A stretch of DNA of 44,261 bases from Candidatus Hydrogenedentota bacterium. Its GTDB lineage: Bacteria; Hydrogenedentota; Hydrogenedentia; Hydrogenedentales; CAITNO01. Position numbers and translations under genes: made by a program. The stretch covers positions 1-44,261 of the forward strand of contig JAKJCY010000003.1 of assembly GCA_022706235.1 (NCBI GenBank), read 5' to 3'. A model generated the notes under the pieces. The model ran no database searches. It was given only the letters and a program-made list of their open reading frames with translations, and had not been told where the DNA came from. Shown in pieces: positions 1-3,929 of the stretch; within the stretch, counting starts at the first letter, position 1; every line of letters begins with the position of its first letter.

Positions 1-1716
1 AACAGCATCATAGGTCAAGGTGCCAATATGTTGGGGATTACCTCCTGGACCGCATGCAACTATTTGCTTTCCGAAGCGCCAGGATGGCGGAATCCCTTCT
101 CTTATGGTATTTCGCCATTACCTGGCCGGTCGAATAATTATTATAAATATGGCAGCCACAACGCCTATGCACACGGTCAAAGCAATGCCTGCGATGATGA
201 CGACAGTAATGGAAACCCTTCCTATGCGGCGAAGGTATTCCGGGATTATGACCGATCGTGGTCCATTTATTGCCTATATGGTGACATGGGCCATACGGAA
301 GGCTGCTTGCCCATAACCATTTCTTGCTTTGATCATGTTGCCGCCTTACACGGACTCTATAACACTGTTGCCGTAATGCGACAACGGGCTAAAACCAAAT
401 TACCTGCGGGCCAGGACCTCTTCGTCACCATCAACAACACGGACGGTGATGTTCGCACCAGTTATGGCGCACACTTGAACGTATTAATCCAGCGGCAATT
501 GTTTGACGATATTCTTTTCCGGAAACCGCATTATCTAGGCTTTGCCGCGTCCGTATTGGCGGCGGTTACTCCCATATTTGGACAAGGACATGTGCTGTGC
601 GTTCCGGGAAAGAAACCCAGATATGTGTTATCCCAGCGTGCACACCACCTGGGCGTGCTGGTCTCCCCATCGACCACGACAGCCTTTAGAAGGCCGTTAA
701 TCAACTCCAGGGATGAAAGTCACGCCCATAAGGATATGGCGCGTTTGCACCTGATTAATTTCGATGCCTCCCTGCAGCAATACACAACCCTATTTCGTGT
801 ATGGTTTATGCAATCTTTTCTCGCCGCTATGGAAGACGGCTACTGTGATTCCAGTTTAATGCTCGACGACCCCATACTGGCACTAAAAGTGTGGTCTTCA
901 GGTTTCTCCCCGAAAACGGGGCGTATTCAACCGGTCTGTTTACGGGTGAACGGCAAATCCATAACACTTGTCGAACATCTCGAATCCCTTACGGAAGGTA
1001 TTGATAAGGCGTATACGGCAGGGTCATTTTCCGAGGAGGAGGTTCCCGGATATCAACTGGTATTTCCCAAGTGGGTCCGCTTGCTCAAAGCCCTTGGAGA
1101 AGGGGATGTACAAACCTGTGCTGCCCAACTTGACTGGGCGTTAAAATTCATGATAGTCGACCGGGAAATGCTACGTACCGGCCATGATCTTGATGCCCCG
1201 GAAATAAAACTTCTCGATCAATTATACGGTCATGTTGATAAGGGTGTCGGCCTCTACTGGGGTTTTGAATCCGCCGGAGCGGTTGATCGGTGCGTATCAC
1301 AAGAACAAATTGGGTATATGCAATCAGCAGGGCCAGATAATACCCGGGCCTATATGCGAAAGGCGATTCTGGAAAAGTTTGGGGATTCCATCGTTTCCGT
1401 GGACTGGGGAGAAATCCGGATACGTGTTCCCAATGCATCCGGGCTGTTAACCACGGAGAAAAGGATCCTTCTTGACAACCCGCTGCGCTTTACAAAACAT
1501 GAAATGGAACCCCTCCTGCAATCTTCGGCTACCATTGGCGATTTTTGCGCAGCCTTTGATGCCAGGAGATTAAGGGGAGAACTAAACTCCAAAACTCTGA
1601 CAGATCGTAGCGCTGATAACGACATCCATCCACGCTTCGAAATCTCTGGCGATGTAAAAGCTACTGGTACTACCGTCTCTTTTGTTCCTGAAAATAAAAT
1701 CGATAGTGATAGTTAG
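1..1716 (+). CDS. Pup ligase/depupylase family protein (PafA/Dop-like), 5' partial
   Basis: The reading frame is open to the left edge, so the start lies outside the window; the first ATG is at 28. The protein belongs to the glutamine-synthetase-like PafA/Dop family, which attaches or removes the small tag Pup through a Glu-Lys isopeptide bond. Visible family blocks, in order (numbered from the ATG at 28): YGDMGHTE near residue 84, matching the loop that carries the catalytic Asp in Dop (V-D-x-x-H-P-E); INNTDGDVRTSYGAHLNV, matching the N-N-x-D-x-x-x-x-S-Y-G-x-H-E-N-Y block; INSRDESHAH, matching N-T-R-D-E-P-H-A-D; ARLHLINFD, matching R-R-L-H-V-I-x-G-D; and a C-terminal NTRAYMRKAILEKF...VDWGEI, matching the T-R-A-x-x-R-G...W block. 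The usual HENY is HLNV here and the K-L-G-T-T-A-L block is lost, so it is divergent. It lies 32 bp before the Pup-like gene. I cannot say whether it acts as ligase or depupylase; family membership is fairly sure. Confidence 0.75.
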   Translation, partial: NSIIGQGANMLGITSWTACNYLLSEAPGWRNPFSYGISPLPGRSNNYYKYGSHNAYAHGQSNACDDDDSNGNPSYAAKVFRDYDRSWSIYCLYGDMGHTEGCLPITISCFDHVAALHGLYNTVAVMRQRAKTKLPAGQDLFVTINNTDGDVRTSYGAHLNVLIQRQLFDDILFRKPHYLGFAASVLAAVTPIFGQGHVLCVPGKKPRYVLSQRAHHLGVLVSPSTTTAFRRPLINSRDESHAHKDMARLHLINFDASLQQYTTLFRVWFMQSFLAAMEDGYCDSSLMLDDPILALKVWSSGFSPKTGRIQPVCLRVNGKSITLVEHLESLTEGIDKAYTAGSFSEEEVPGYQLVFPKWVRLLKALGEGDVQTCAAQLDWALKFMIVDREMLRTGHDLDAPEIKLLDQLYGHVDKGVGLYWGFESAGAVDRCVSQEQIGYMQSAGPDNTRAYMRKAILEKFGDSIVSVDWGEIRIRVPNASGLLTTEKRILLDNPLRFTKHEMEPLLQSSATIGDFCAAFDARRLRGELNSKTLTDRSADNDIHPRFEISGDVKATGTTVSFVPENKIDSDS

Positions 1717-1748
1717 GCGAACCATAACAACCCCAAGGAGAATTCACA

Positions 1749-1961
1749 ATGAGTGAAAAAGAAATCAGATTAATCCCGTCGAATGATCCAGGCAGTGATG
1801 ATGGTGTTCCCACAGGACCCAATGTTGACCGTTTATTGGAACTTCGACACCAGGCGGAAGTGTTTAACAGAATTGCTGAAAGAGCCTCGTCCTTTGCACT
1901 GCATAGCGGTCTGTCCGCATTCGACCTTCTTGATTCGATTCATAACACGAGCGGCCAATAA
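1749..1961 (+). CDS. Putative Pup-like protein modifier, 70 aa
   Basis: This small protein sits between two PafA/Dop-family genes, the position where pup lies in dop-pup clusters. The start is supported by AAGGAG eight bases before the ATG. Residues 1-25 are rich in Ser, Asp, Pro and Gly and look disordered. Residues 26-63 look helical and amphipathic. The protein ends in N-T-S-G-Q. Actinobacterial Pup is about 64 residues, largely disordered, and ends in G-G-Q or G-G-E; the Gln form must be deamidated by Dop before ligation. The Pup-like UBact tags also end in Gly-Glu or Gly-Gln. Apart from size, layout and C-terminus I see no clear sequence match to either. Lys4 is the only lysine. The stop codon overlaps the next start (TAATG), so translation is probably coupled. 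The role as a tag is an inference from context. Confidence 0.6.
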   Translation: MSEKEIRLIPSNDPGSDDGVPTGPNVDRLLELRHQAEVFNRIAERASSFALHSGLSAFDLLDSIHNTSGQ

Positions 1962-3376
1962 TGACCGCTTCATCGCAATTTTGTTTCGGCATCGAACAGG
2001 AACATCCGCCCATATCGATTCTGAATGACGGTACTCCCCGGCCCACGAATAACATTGAGGCCTATTACGGATTGAGGGATGCAATCAAGAAATCCGGAAT
2101 TCCTCATTTGTTCGATAGACGGGGCATGTTTATTCCTTATGGGCGCTTCTATCTTGAAGGTGTGGGCAACCACGTTGAAACGGCTGTTATTCCCTGTGAA
2201 AATCCCGACCATGCCGTTAAGAACGAAGCAAAATTTACGCGTGTGCTTCAGGATGCTATCATCTCCACCCGCGCACAGTTTCCCGGACTTAACCTTCTGA
2301 GGAATAACATAGACTATATCACCGGTTCGACGTGGGCCTCGCACGAAAGCTATGCCATTGACCGCCCGCCAGAATATCTTAAAAATGCTCTACTTCCCTT
2401 TTTGATAACACGCCAGGTGTTTAGCGGTTCAGCAACCATTATGGGTGGGGGCATGCGCCTCAGCCCGCGCGCCCTTTTCATGAATGTCTCCAGTGGCGGG
2501 GGTACCACGCACAAGCGTGCCATCTACTCCCTTTCCAGGGATGAACCTCTTATGGACGGTTCAGCATTCACCCACCGACTGCACTTGATTCTCGGAGACG
2601 GATTAATGTCCCAATTCGGTCAATGGTTGAAACTCGGAACCACTGCTCTGGTGATCCGTTTGGCGGAAAATAATCCCGACATCGGAGAAGCGGTAAAGTT
2701 CCATCAGCCCGTATCCGCCATCAAGTCCTTGTCTGTATTAACTCCCCAGAAAGCGAGTCTCTTCAACGCAAAACTGCTTCGTGTTCAAAAACACTATCTT
2801 TATGCGGTGTCACGCATGCTGGAAAAGGGCTTCCTTCCGGAATGGTGCGAAGATGTTGTGCAGGCTTGGTCTGAAGTTCTCTCCACACTTGAACAAGATC
2901 CGATGGCTTTGTGCGACCGGCTTGACCCCTATATTAAGCTGCGTCTTTACGATGAATATTTGCGCTCCCAAAAGTTAACATGGAGTGATGTCACCTCATT
3001 TTCCAACATCTACTTTCAGCTGGCCATGTTGGATGTCCGGTACCATGCTCTTGTCGATGGTGTGTTCGAAGAATTGGATAGCAGTGGTGCACTGAACCAC
3101 AGACGATATGACGACGAGGAAGTCCGCCCGGGCTCGGAAGCGGAACCTTTTATTCCAGAATCACTACCCAGGGAAGTTCTGCGTGCCCGAATCATCAAAA
3201 CACATTCAGGGCGTGAGGGCTACAGCTGCAGATGGACCGAAATAGTCGATGAAAATATCAGGAGAATGATAACCATGAACGATCCCTTTTCAAGCGACTG
3301 TTGCTGGACCCATTATGATAGCCGCAATCCATTCGACGATGAATTTATACGATTCCGGGATCTCTATTTGGAATAA
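1961..3376 (+). CDS. Second Pup ligase/depupylase family protein (PafA/Dop-like)
   Basis: A complete 471-residue member of the PafA/Dop family; Mycobacterium PafA and Dop are about 450-500 residues. Blocks in order: F-G-I-E-Q-E-H at 8-14, matching the N-terminal G-x-E-x-E metal-binding motif; YGRFYLEGVGNHVE near 60; NNIDYITGSTWASHESY near 112, matching N-N-x-D...S-Y-G-x-H-E-N-Y; SRDEPLMD; HRLHLILGDGLMSQFGQWLKLGTTALV, close to the Dop/PafA R-L-H-V-I-x-G-D...K-L-G-T-T-A-L-V; LDVRYH; and a C-terminal R-A-x-x-x-x...W-T-E-I...D-P-F. The Asp that normally follows R-x-Y-x in the N-terminal loop, the catalytic Asp in the family, appears as Glu (Y-L-E). The start overlaps the Pup-like stop and has no strong ribosome site of its own, which fits coupled translation. 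Ligase or depupylase cannot be decided from sequence alone. Confidence 0.78.
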   Translation: MTASSQFCFGIEQEHPPISILNDGTPRPTNNIEAYYGLRDAIKKSGIPHLFDRRGMFIPYGRFYLEGVGNHVETAVIPCENPDHAVKNEAKFTRVLQDAIISTRAQFPGLNLLRNNIDYITGSTWASHESYAIDRPPEYLKNALLPFLITRQVFSGSATIMGGGMRLSPRALFMNVSSGGGTTHKRAIYSLSRDEPLMDGSAFTHRLHLILGDGLMSQFGQWLKLGTTALVIRLAENNPDIGEAVKFHQPVSAIKSLSVLTPQKASLFNAKLLRVQKHYLYAVSRMLEKGFLPEWCEDVVQAWSEVLSTLEQDPMALCDRLDPYIKLRLYDEYLRSQKLTWSDVTSFSNIYFQLAMLDVRYHALVDGVFEELDSSGALNHRRYDDEEVRPGSEAEPFIPESLPREVLRARIIKTHSGREGYSCRWTEIVDENIRRMITMNDPFSSDCCWTHYDSRNPFDDEFIRFRDLYLE

Positions 3377-3422: not shown

Positions 3423-3831
3423 ATGATGAGCAAGGTTTTGAATGCGCGAATGAGATGTTTACATATTGTTAATGAGAATGCATGTGAACATACTGTTCTA
3501 CTGCGCGATGTGCATGGGGTTGTGGTATCGCCGCTTTTAGCGTGAATAACATGGAAAAACTCCAGGCTATCATGGAGGCGGCCAGGGAAACAGGTTCTCC
3601 CGTCATTATCCAAGCGTCACGGAGGGTACGCAATATACTACGGATGCCTATCTCCGTCACCTTATACTGGATGCGGTGGAATTGCATCCGGAAATCCCCG
3701 TAGCCATGCACCAGGATCATGGCAATTCGCCAGGAACCTGTTTTTCAGCAATTCAATGAGGCTTCACCTCGGTTATGATGGATGACTCTCTCAAAGAAGA
3801 CGGCAATACCGAATCCGATTATACCTATAAT
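3423..3831 (+). pseudogene. Decayed class II fructose-bisphosphate aldolase (5' two-fifths)
   Basis: A chain of short reading frames in shifting frames matches the N-terminal part of class II fructose-bisphosphate aldolase, the glycolytic enzyme that cleaves fructose-1,6-bisphosphate. In order I read [20 protein letters not shown], then GSPVIIQAS, then after a frame change [40 protein letters not shown], a stop codon, and GFTSVMMDDSLKEDGN. The family consensus is close to A-F-N-V-N-N-M-E...P-V-I-x-Q-A-S...H-x-D-H-G...G-F-x-S-V-M-x-D. At least two frameshifts and an in-frame TGA break it, and homology stops near 3831, so the C-terminal half is absent. A good ribosome site (AAAGGAG) still precedes the ATG at 3423. 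It fills the gap behind the Pup-like operon. I see nothing coding from 3832 to 3929. Confidence 0.7.
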
Positions 3832-3929
3832 CAGCGGAACAGATTCATTTAAACTCGCTTAAAAGTGTATATCTTCTTGGTTCTCGCCTCAATTTTCGGT
3901 TCCGCTTTTGATTCGCCTGGCGTGAACTT

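Follow-up and report, generated by a model that had tools for sequence, protein, structure and literature searches.

A Dop-like, tag and PafA-like gene set from a probable Hydrogenedentota bacterium and the ubiquitin-like and Pup-like operons of its relatives

The Dop-like, tag and PafA-like genes of the window

The window (the whole stretch of DNA analysed here) comprises the first 44,261 bases of the 73,782-base contig JAKJCY010000003.1. The contig belongs to a genome bin of 5.03 Mb in 545 contigs, 88% complete and 6% contaminated, and its host is probably an uncultured bacterium of the Hydrogenedentota. It opens with three consecutive genes, which encode a Dop-like enzyme, a Pup-like tag and a PafA-like enzyme (Table 1). 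In related genomes (loci and genomes are numbered with L and G, respectively), homologous genes follow a ubiquitin-type half in one composite operon; in the window genome, any such upstream half would lie beyond the start of the contig, and the window shows the Pup half only. The initial annotation of the window had described two PafA/Dop-family genes flanking a 70-residue protein with a Ser-Gly-Gln end, with the last two genes coupled. The open reading frames, the Pup_ligase matches and the TAATG overlap bear this out, and translational coupling of the tag and PafA-like genes is predicted from that overlap.

Table 1. Features at the start of the window
Feature	Positions	Strand	Remarks
Dop-like enzyme, predicted tag deamidase and tag-removing enzyme	1..1716	+	571 residues seen; 5' end open; Pfam Pup_ligase
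Likely ribosome-binding site of the tag gene, AAGGAG	1735..1740	+	from the sequence; precedes the tag ATG
Pup-like tag, 70 residues, ATG start	1749..1961	+	ends in HNTSGQ; position kept in 9 further loci
TAATG, overlap of tag stop and PafA-like start	1959..1963	+	one base common to both genes
PafA-like enzyme, predicted tag ligase, 471 residues, ATG start, GIEQE motif	1961..3376	+	Pfam Pup_ligase
Remnant of a class II fructose-bisphosphate aldolase gene, two frames	3545..3849	+	Pfam PF01116; partly by eye

Both enzymes matched the Pup_ligase family (PF03136; gathering cut-off 25 bits), the Dop-like protein at 1.9e-56 (192.4 bits) and the PafA-like protein at 2.9e-56 (191.7 bits), and their PDB matches below an E value of 1e-10 were Dop and PafA chains only. 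No other glutamine-synthetase-like family was ahead of PafA/Dop for either of them, in line with the family proposed in the initial annotation. The passages of PMC2588565 on the Pup_ligase fold give GhExE, conserved acids and [HQ]-x-[NH] as its motifs. The PafA-like enzyme keeps GIEQE, Y-L-E...H-V-E and an acidic residue of strand 2, and has H-E-S in place of H-x-[NH]. The Dop-like enzyme keeps D-M-G-H-T-E and H-L-N; its first strand, mostly G-x-D-x-E in relatives, precedes the contig start. Because the contig start cuts this gene, about 14 N-terminal residues and the first active-site motif are missing, as judged against the L004 homologue. The Dop-like proteins carry, between their first motif and D-x-G-H-x-E, a stretch of variable sequence, Gly/Tyr-rich in some loci, for which the PafA-like proteins have no counterpart. 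This low-complexity stretch was observed in L109, L111, L124 and L112, and the G057 assembly breaks within it. The characteristic loop of canonical Dop presumably falls in the same region. According to the part of PMC7947786 that compares the two enzymes, a loop of about 40 residues distinguishes Dop from PafA.

The lineages of the enzymes were examined in a maximum-likelihood tree of 62 proteins (the locus proteins and 14 of the 66 PafA matches), which was midpoint-rooted and had weak deepest forks. The first enzymes of seven loci of the window type formed one clade with a support of 100/100, nested in a 100/100 group that also held the first genes of 15 further clusters of actinobacterial, UBact and other types. 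The second enzymes formed one clade (100/99) with 13 database relatives, separate from PafA of both the actinobacterial and the UBact type. In this tree, the first window enzyme thus falls on the Dop side, and the second belongs to a PafA-type lineage of its own. Two enzyme subtypes were visible, one consisting of the window, L004 and L112 and the other of L109, L111, L125 and L126. The PafA alignment (A1) held 11 of the 66 PafA matches, close ones, and the 289-residue fragment P0012 was left out. Neither enzyme of the window was matched in PADLOC, and no relative was found among 23 pattern matches in viral contigs. Two plasmid records and one phage record matched at 27–32% identity. Four consecutive Pup_ligase homologues, three of which form a long-branched group of their own, were observed in L075 (9740-18352), a contig filed under Candidatus Woesearchaeota.

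The small frame was looked for in relatives and is present there. Its position and C-terminus are kept in the nine further loci, and the layout of a Pup-tagging module, as initially proposed, is upheld. All ten tags lying in the Dop/PafA position (the window and nine relatives) end in Glu or Gln, and the penultimate residue is Gly in eight and Ala in two; the ends are GGQ and GGE (three each), GAQ (two), SGQ (one, in the window) and SGE (one). Over the loci surveyed, 130 of 10,812 open reading frames of at least 50 residues (1.2%, the true tags included) end in G-[EQ]. A G-[EQ] end in the tag position is more than chance. The tags at L109 13154-13357 and L111 11050-11214 end in Gly-Ala-Gln in place of Gly-Gly-Gln; this is a naturally occurring variant of the presumed conjugation terminus. 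In G018, about 770 bases (L109 13360-14128) separate the tag from the PafA-like gene; this spacer is absent from its congener G026, in which the two genes are almost contiguous.

The tags of seven loci align with one another. When the profile of these seven tags was run on 4,478 six-frame stretches from 21 unseen loci, its top three matches (6.5e-07, 1.8e-05 and 0.0013) were the three sites between Dop-like and PafA-like genes of the window type, and the fourth (0.011, L190) was located elsewhere. Against PDB, the best match of the profile was Pup of M. tuberculosis, with the C-terminus aligned, at an E value of 0.11 that is not significant alone, and one of the seven aligned tags matched Pfam Pup (PF05639) at 0.045. 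From these weak matches, the kinship of the tag family with Pup is likely but not proven. UBact (PF20513) was absent among the families matched by the seven tags at E values up to 5, a range in which the HMMER filters drop most matches above 0.1; the tag of the UBact cluster L146 matched Pfam UBact at 2e-22. A word-based search with the window tag recovered only itself. The passages of PMC2588565 on Pup recognition use a length of 50–90 residues, a C-terminal G-[EQ] and a gene beside the PafA gene, and the window tag has 70 residues, ends in S-G-Q and overlaps the PafA-like start. The tag had initially been judged unlike Pup apart from its end; this is correct for the window sequence taken singly, but the best PDB match of the family profile is Pup, if not a significant one by itself.

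The composite operon in related genomes

In eight related loci, the genes lie on one strand in the order RING-like, E1, E2, X, ubiquitin-like protein (Ubl), JAB, ARC/Mpa, Dop, tag and PafA. The order is complete in L004 (a Planctomycetota metagenome-assembled genome), L109 (G018), L111 (G026), L125 (G358), L126 (G166), L178 (G399) and L179 (G463), and it is kept in L193 (G602) with X undetected; L178, L179 and L193 were added after the profiles had been built. E1 is ThiF-like, the RING-like protein is a zinc/RING-like protein, and X is a protein of about 300 residues whose family was not assigned. Dop, tag and PafA are consecutive in these loci, without prcBA between Dop and PafA. L177 (G551), which is cut at both ends, runs from E1 through the start of Dop. 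In G057, the set is split over two contigs, L124 with JAB, ARC and the Dop start and L112 with Dop, tag, PafA and an AAA gene; since both contigs end in the Gly/Tyr-rich stretch, we infer that they join. The ubiquitin-type half of these loci was outside the reach of the initial annotation, which was confined to the window.

The ARC-like ATPases of the relatives lie nearest to the family of proteasome ATPases. The E2 profile matched UBC enzymes in PDB at 0.0097 and weaker, and the E2-like identity is settled by a predicted E2 structure; HIV capsid proteins, the top PDB rows of the profile (0.0047), were judged spurious. An E2 alignment (A9) contained 67 of the best 120 of 209 E2 matches. With the Ubl profile, the first three PDB rows were designed repeat proteins (best 0.0012, with no single stretch passing), followed by MoaD at 0.07. 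Single Ubls matched Ubiquitin_5 (0.0087), YukD (0.011) and Kindlin_2_N (0.014) in Pfam, each in one of five. As these results are weak, the Ubl call draws on position, size, an Ala-Gly end and the weak matches together. The PADLOC matches of E1 (6e-12), JAB (4e-05) and ARC (IetA, 1.7e-21) were read as generic. In the three aligned JABs (L004 5213-6307, L109 8505-9566 and L111 14901-15956), three invariant cysteines separate the H-x-H part of the metal site from its S-x-x-D part, possibly forming an extra zinc site, and the L126 JAB is without them.

These neighbours bear on an alternative in which the small protein would be a carrier in small-molecule synthesis rather than a protein tag, and the two enzymes of the glutamine-synthetase fold would load amines onto its C-terminus. 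The fold family does include small-molecule ligases, according to a passage in PMC2588565. However, the neighbours in eight loci are ARC, JAB, E1, E2 and Ubl, the best PDB match of the tag profile is Pup, and no biosynthetic gene was recognised among the listed open reading frames by eye, without a systematic search. We regard the carrier explanation as very improbable.

The link between the two halves was followed from the E2 and JAB sides. The E2 profile matched 44 of the 397 genomes around G358, and the E2 loci of 20 of these 44, together with those of G166 and G358, were examined. The five best matches (E values up to 7.2e-43; L125, L126, L177, L178 and L179) all accompany a Pup half, for G551 (L177) within its contig limits. 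Among the weaker matches, examined in 17 of the 39 remaining genomes, one has a Pup half (L193), and 16 loci (L180-L192 and L194-L196; 7–19 kb each) have no match to Dop, PafA or ARC; within these 16, E1 was matched in 13, Ubl in 11 and JAB in 15. Two E2 matches were observed in 6 of the same 16 loci and at least two JAB matches in 9. The JAB profile matched 6 of the 386 relatives of the window genome. Five of them (G018, G026, G057, G166 and G358) have the Pup half, in G057 on another contig, and in G350 it was not found in the 10.7 kb examined.

An AAA gene follows PafA in L004, L109, L111 and L112, as detected by the profile, and in L193 (AAA_lid_9 at 1.7e-09, under the profile threshold). 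It was not seen in the window, in L126, in L178 or in the 852 available bases of L125, and L179 ends too soon. In the window, the aldolase remnant occupies the place in which the former five loci carry the AAA gene. Its PF01116 matches are 6.7e-06 (3545-3622) and 8.1e-05 (3631-3756), and the segment 3763-3849, without a family match, was assigned by eye. The occurrence of this remnant in different frames suggests a rearrangement at the module border.

Proteasome genes and interpretation of the locus

The PF00227 search covered the window genome (G000) and six relatives; G399, G463, G551 and G602 lay outside it. One gene each was found in G000, G018, G026, G057, G166 and G386 (the L004 genome), and two in G358. 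Seven of the eight genes are HslV above the curated cut-off, with 275.6 bits in the window genome. Apart from HslV, the family was thus unmatched in the window genome and in five of the six relatives (93–100% complete where stated), and the absence of 20S from the window genome is provisional, as this is 88% complete. The eighth gene is PrcB (1.6e-44) of an ARC-Dop-UBact-PrcB-PrcA-PafA cluster in G358, in which PrcA was matched at 9e-23. This UBact-proteasome cluster (L146 5603-12184, G358:C2), with a tag end RSGE, is separate from the composite locus L125. The initial annotation had stated that no prcBA genes follow, and none lies in the first 3.4 kb of the window; the genome searches for proteasome and Mpa/ARC genes gave HslV only for PF00227 and FtsH as the sole ARC match.

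These data also bear on an ordinary Pup/UBact-proteasome system, in which prcBA would be located in the portion of the genome not covered by the bin and the tag would mark proteins for degradation by 20S. The bin lacks 12% of the genome, the ARC-like ATPases of relatives are nearest to a proteasome family, and the passage on coupled systems in PMC7159879 (2020) proposed a link to degradation. On the other hand, 20S was unmatched in most of the relatives tested, Dop, tag and PafA are consecutive without prcBA, unlike in L146, G358 keeps its UBact-20S cluster apart from the composite locus, and the enzyme lineages are separate in the tree. An ordinary proteasome system is therefore improbable in our judgement.

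The tails of the ARC proteins were also compared. Mpa binds the Pup helix with its coiled coils and docks to 20S with its GQYL end, as stated in sections of PMC7947786 and PMC8755798. None of ten composite ARC tails ends in GQYL or in two aliphatic residues. The control set of 28 ARC genes, from 27 named loci and from L146, comprises 8 with a GQYL end, 10 with two terminal aliphatic residues and 10 with other ends. The ten with aliphatic ends come from contigs of Gemmatimonadota, Latescibacterota, Armatimonadota and Fraserbacteria and from G358; seven are UBact-type by the tree, and for six a crude motif points to a PrcB-like gene. The missing GQYL end was rejected as a sign of a missing 20S, because UBact-type ARCs beside a PrcB-like gene are also without it.

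It is fairly probable that the window is the 3' part of a dual (ubiquitin-like and Pup-like) tagging operon that feeds an ARC/Mpa-type unfoldase and not 20S. In the canonical system, as described in passages of PMC7947786 and PMC8755798, Dop deamidates the C-terminal Gln of Pup and removes Pup, and PafA ligates Pup to lysines. By the proposed mechanism, the Dop-like enzyme would deamidate the Gln at the end of the tag, yielding Glu, and would also remove tags, and the Gln-ending window tag would need this neighbour for its activation. The PafA-like enzyme would ligate the Glu of the tag to target lysines, and the ARC-like ATPase would grip the tag on tagged proteins. The Ubl would be loaded by E1 and E2, and the Rpn11-like JAB, encoded beside ARC, may remove it as the substrate is pulled or unfolded. 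Without 20S, the target may be remodelled, released or passed to another protease. By a bolder reading, which we hold to be less likely than not, the ubiquitin-type E1-E2-RING cascade and the Pup-type ligase/deamidase pair, two systems chemically unrelated to each other but encoded in one operon, would converge on one Mpa/ARC with its own Rpn11-like JAB. Such a dual-tag segregase would be a proteasome cap without 20S, with the Pup-like tag as handle and the Ubl as checkpoint.

A stand-alone regulatory module of Dop, tag and PafA was considered as well, in which the lineage would keep the Pup-like half only and tagging itself would alter the activity or location of the target. The composite-type ARC, E1, JAB and AAA genes were not found in the own bin, no AAA_lid_9 gene like that of L004, L112, L109, L111 and L193 follows the window PafA, although the sequence is continuous there and holds the aldolase remnant instead, and proteasome-free Pup/PafA loci are known from a passage in PMC2588565. 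However, the contig breaks off within Dop, 14 codons from its start, and all nine loci with upstream sequence carry ARC, JAB and E1. Both loci of the window subtype (L004, and G057 with L124 and L112) carry ARC and JAB, and the AAA gene is also unseen after PafA in L126, L178 and L125 (852 bases), all of which have the upstream half. Taken together, we consider a stand-alone module rather unlikely.

Several results weigh against the dual tagging operon in the window genome. The phylum of the window consists of one order with 68 genomes, and PafA was matched at 1e-30 in four of them (the window genome G000, G018, G026 and G057); the other 64, including three others of the window's genus, had no such match. 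The module is thus of patchy occurrence, and it might be dispensable or result from a binning error. The E2 of G026, a member of this order, is identical to a protein assigned to Candidatus Hydrogenedentes bacterium, from which the phylum is taken to be Hydrogenedentota. The own bin was searched for the composite-type ARC, E1, JAB and downstream AAA and none was found, E2 and Ubl not being searched; the matches obtained instead were one FtsH for ARC, TcdA-/ThiF-like proteins for E1 and ClpB/ClpA for AAA. As ARC, JAB and E1 form a single block directly upstream in relatives, one assembly gap could explain their absence, and loss is possible. Both enzymes are far under the NCBIfam equivalog cut-offs (492 bits for Dop, TIGR03688; 551 bits for PafA, TIGR03686), the first scoring 168 and 147 bits and the second 148 and 143 bits, respectively. 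The window tag matched neither Pup (PF05639) nor UBact in Pfam, and the Pup model, which the initial annotation had named for the tag, hence did not recognise it. A RING family match was obtained for one of three RING-like proteins tested, just under its cut-off, and the AlphaFold model of the L004 Ubl, made without an alignment, was poor (pLDDT 52) and was not used. Since UBact-type ARCs are without GQYL, the ARC tail does not show independence from 20S and is suggestive only.

Ubiquitin-type and Pup-type tagging, the textbook example of convergent evolution, are generally treated as alternatives. A conserved array with both tagging types, an ARC-family unfoldase, an Rpn11-like JAB and, in the majority of hosts examined, no 20S would make the role of proteasome-free pupylation testable. 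It would also allow a test of whether a machine that recognises tags, unfolds targets and removes tags can exist without a peptidase. Moreover, the enzymes provide a further Pup-type lineage for asking how ligase and hydrolase diverged, and may offer a new tag/ligase pair for proximity labelling.

Comparison with known tagging systems

In the actinobacterial Pup-proteasome system, Dop, a small Gln-ending tag and PafA occur as in the window, and the tags of some relatives resemble the C-terminus of Pup. In contrast to that system, the window genome has no 20S match, its enzymes fall in separate, well-supported clades, and the ARCs of its relatives are without GQYL. The UBact cluster L146 of G358 resembles the composite loci in that ARC, Dop, tag and PafA succeed one another in this order on a single strand; it differs in having prcB and prcA between tag and PafA, a tag of the Pfam UBact family and enzymes in other clades. 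The Bil and polyUbl operons likewise bring E1, E2, Ubl and JAB together, and the passages of PMC11354881 on them mention neither a Pup half nor ARC; similarly, 16 of 20 E2 loci in our survey had no Dop, PafA or ARC.

The system had initially been called previously undescribed, which no longer stands: it is not wholly new, as proteasome-free pupylation has been known since 2008 (PMC2588565) and the coupling of Ubl and Pup since 2020 (PMC7159879), judging from the passages of these papers on the subject. In Plesiocystis and Rhodopirellula, the relevant passages of PMC2588565 likewise report Pup and PafA homologues without linked proteasome genes, and a tag of 50–90 residues with a G-[EQ] end like that of the window. 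The ligases described there have a four-helix membrane insertion and are encoded beside a gene for a membrane protein. In the present case, the tag gene lies between two paralogues, and the window PafA has no insertion of such a size after H-x-S in the alignment, judged by eye. The coupled system in PMC7159879 is given in one sentence, for Thermofonsia and planctomycetes, with Ubl- and Pup-conjugation genes together as in the related loci, and L004 is filed as a planctomycete. The gene order, tag sequence, unfoldase and proteasome status are given here and not in the passages on coupling of that paper. Beyond this earlier work, the analysis provides the gene order, a tag family whose profile was checked on loci not used to build it, the distinct lineages of the enzymes, the lack of a 20S match in most of the hosts examined, the coexistence with UBact in one genome (G358) and the members in the phylum of the window.

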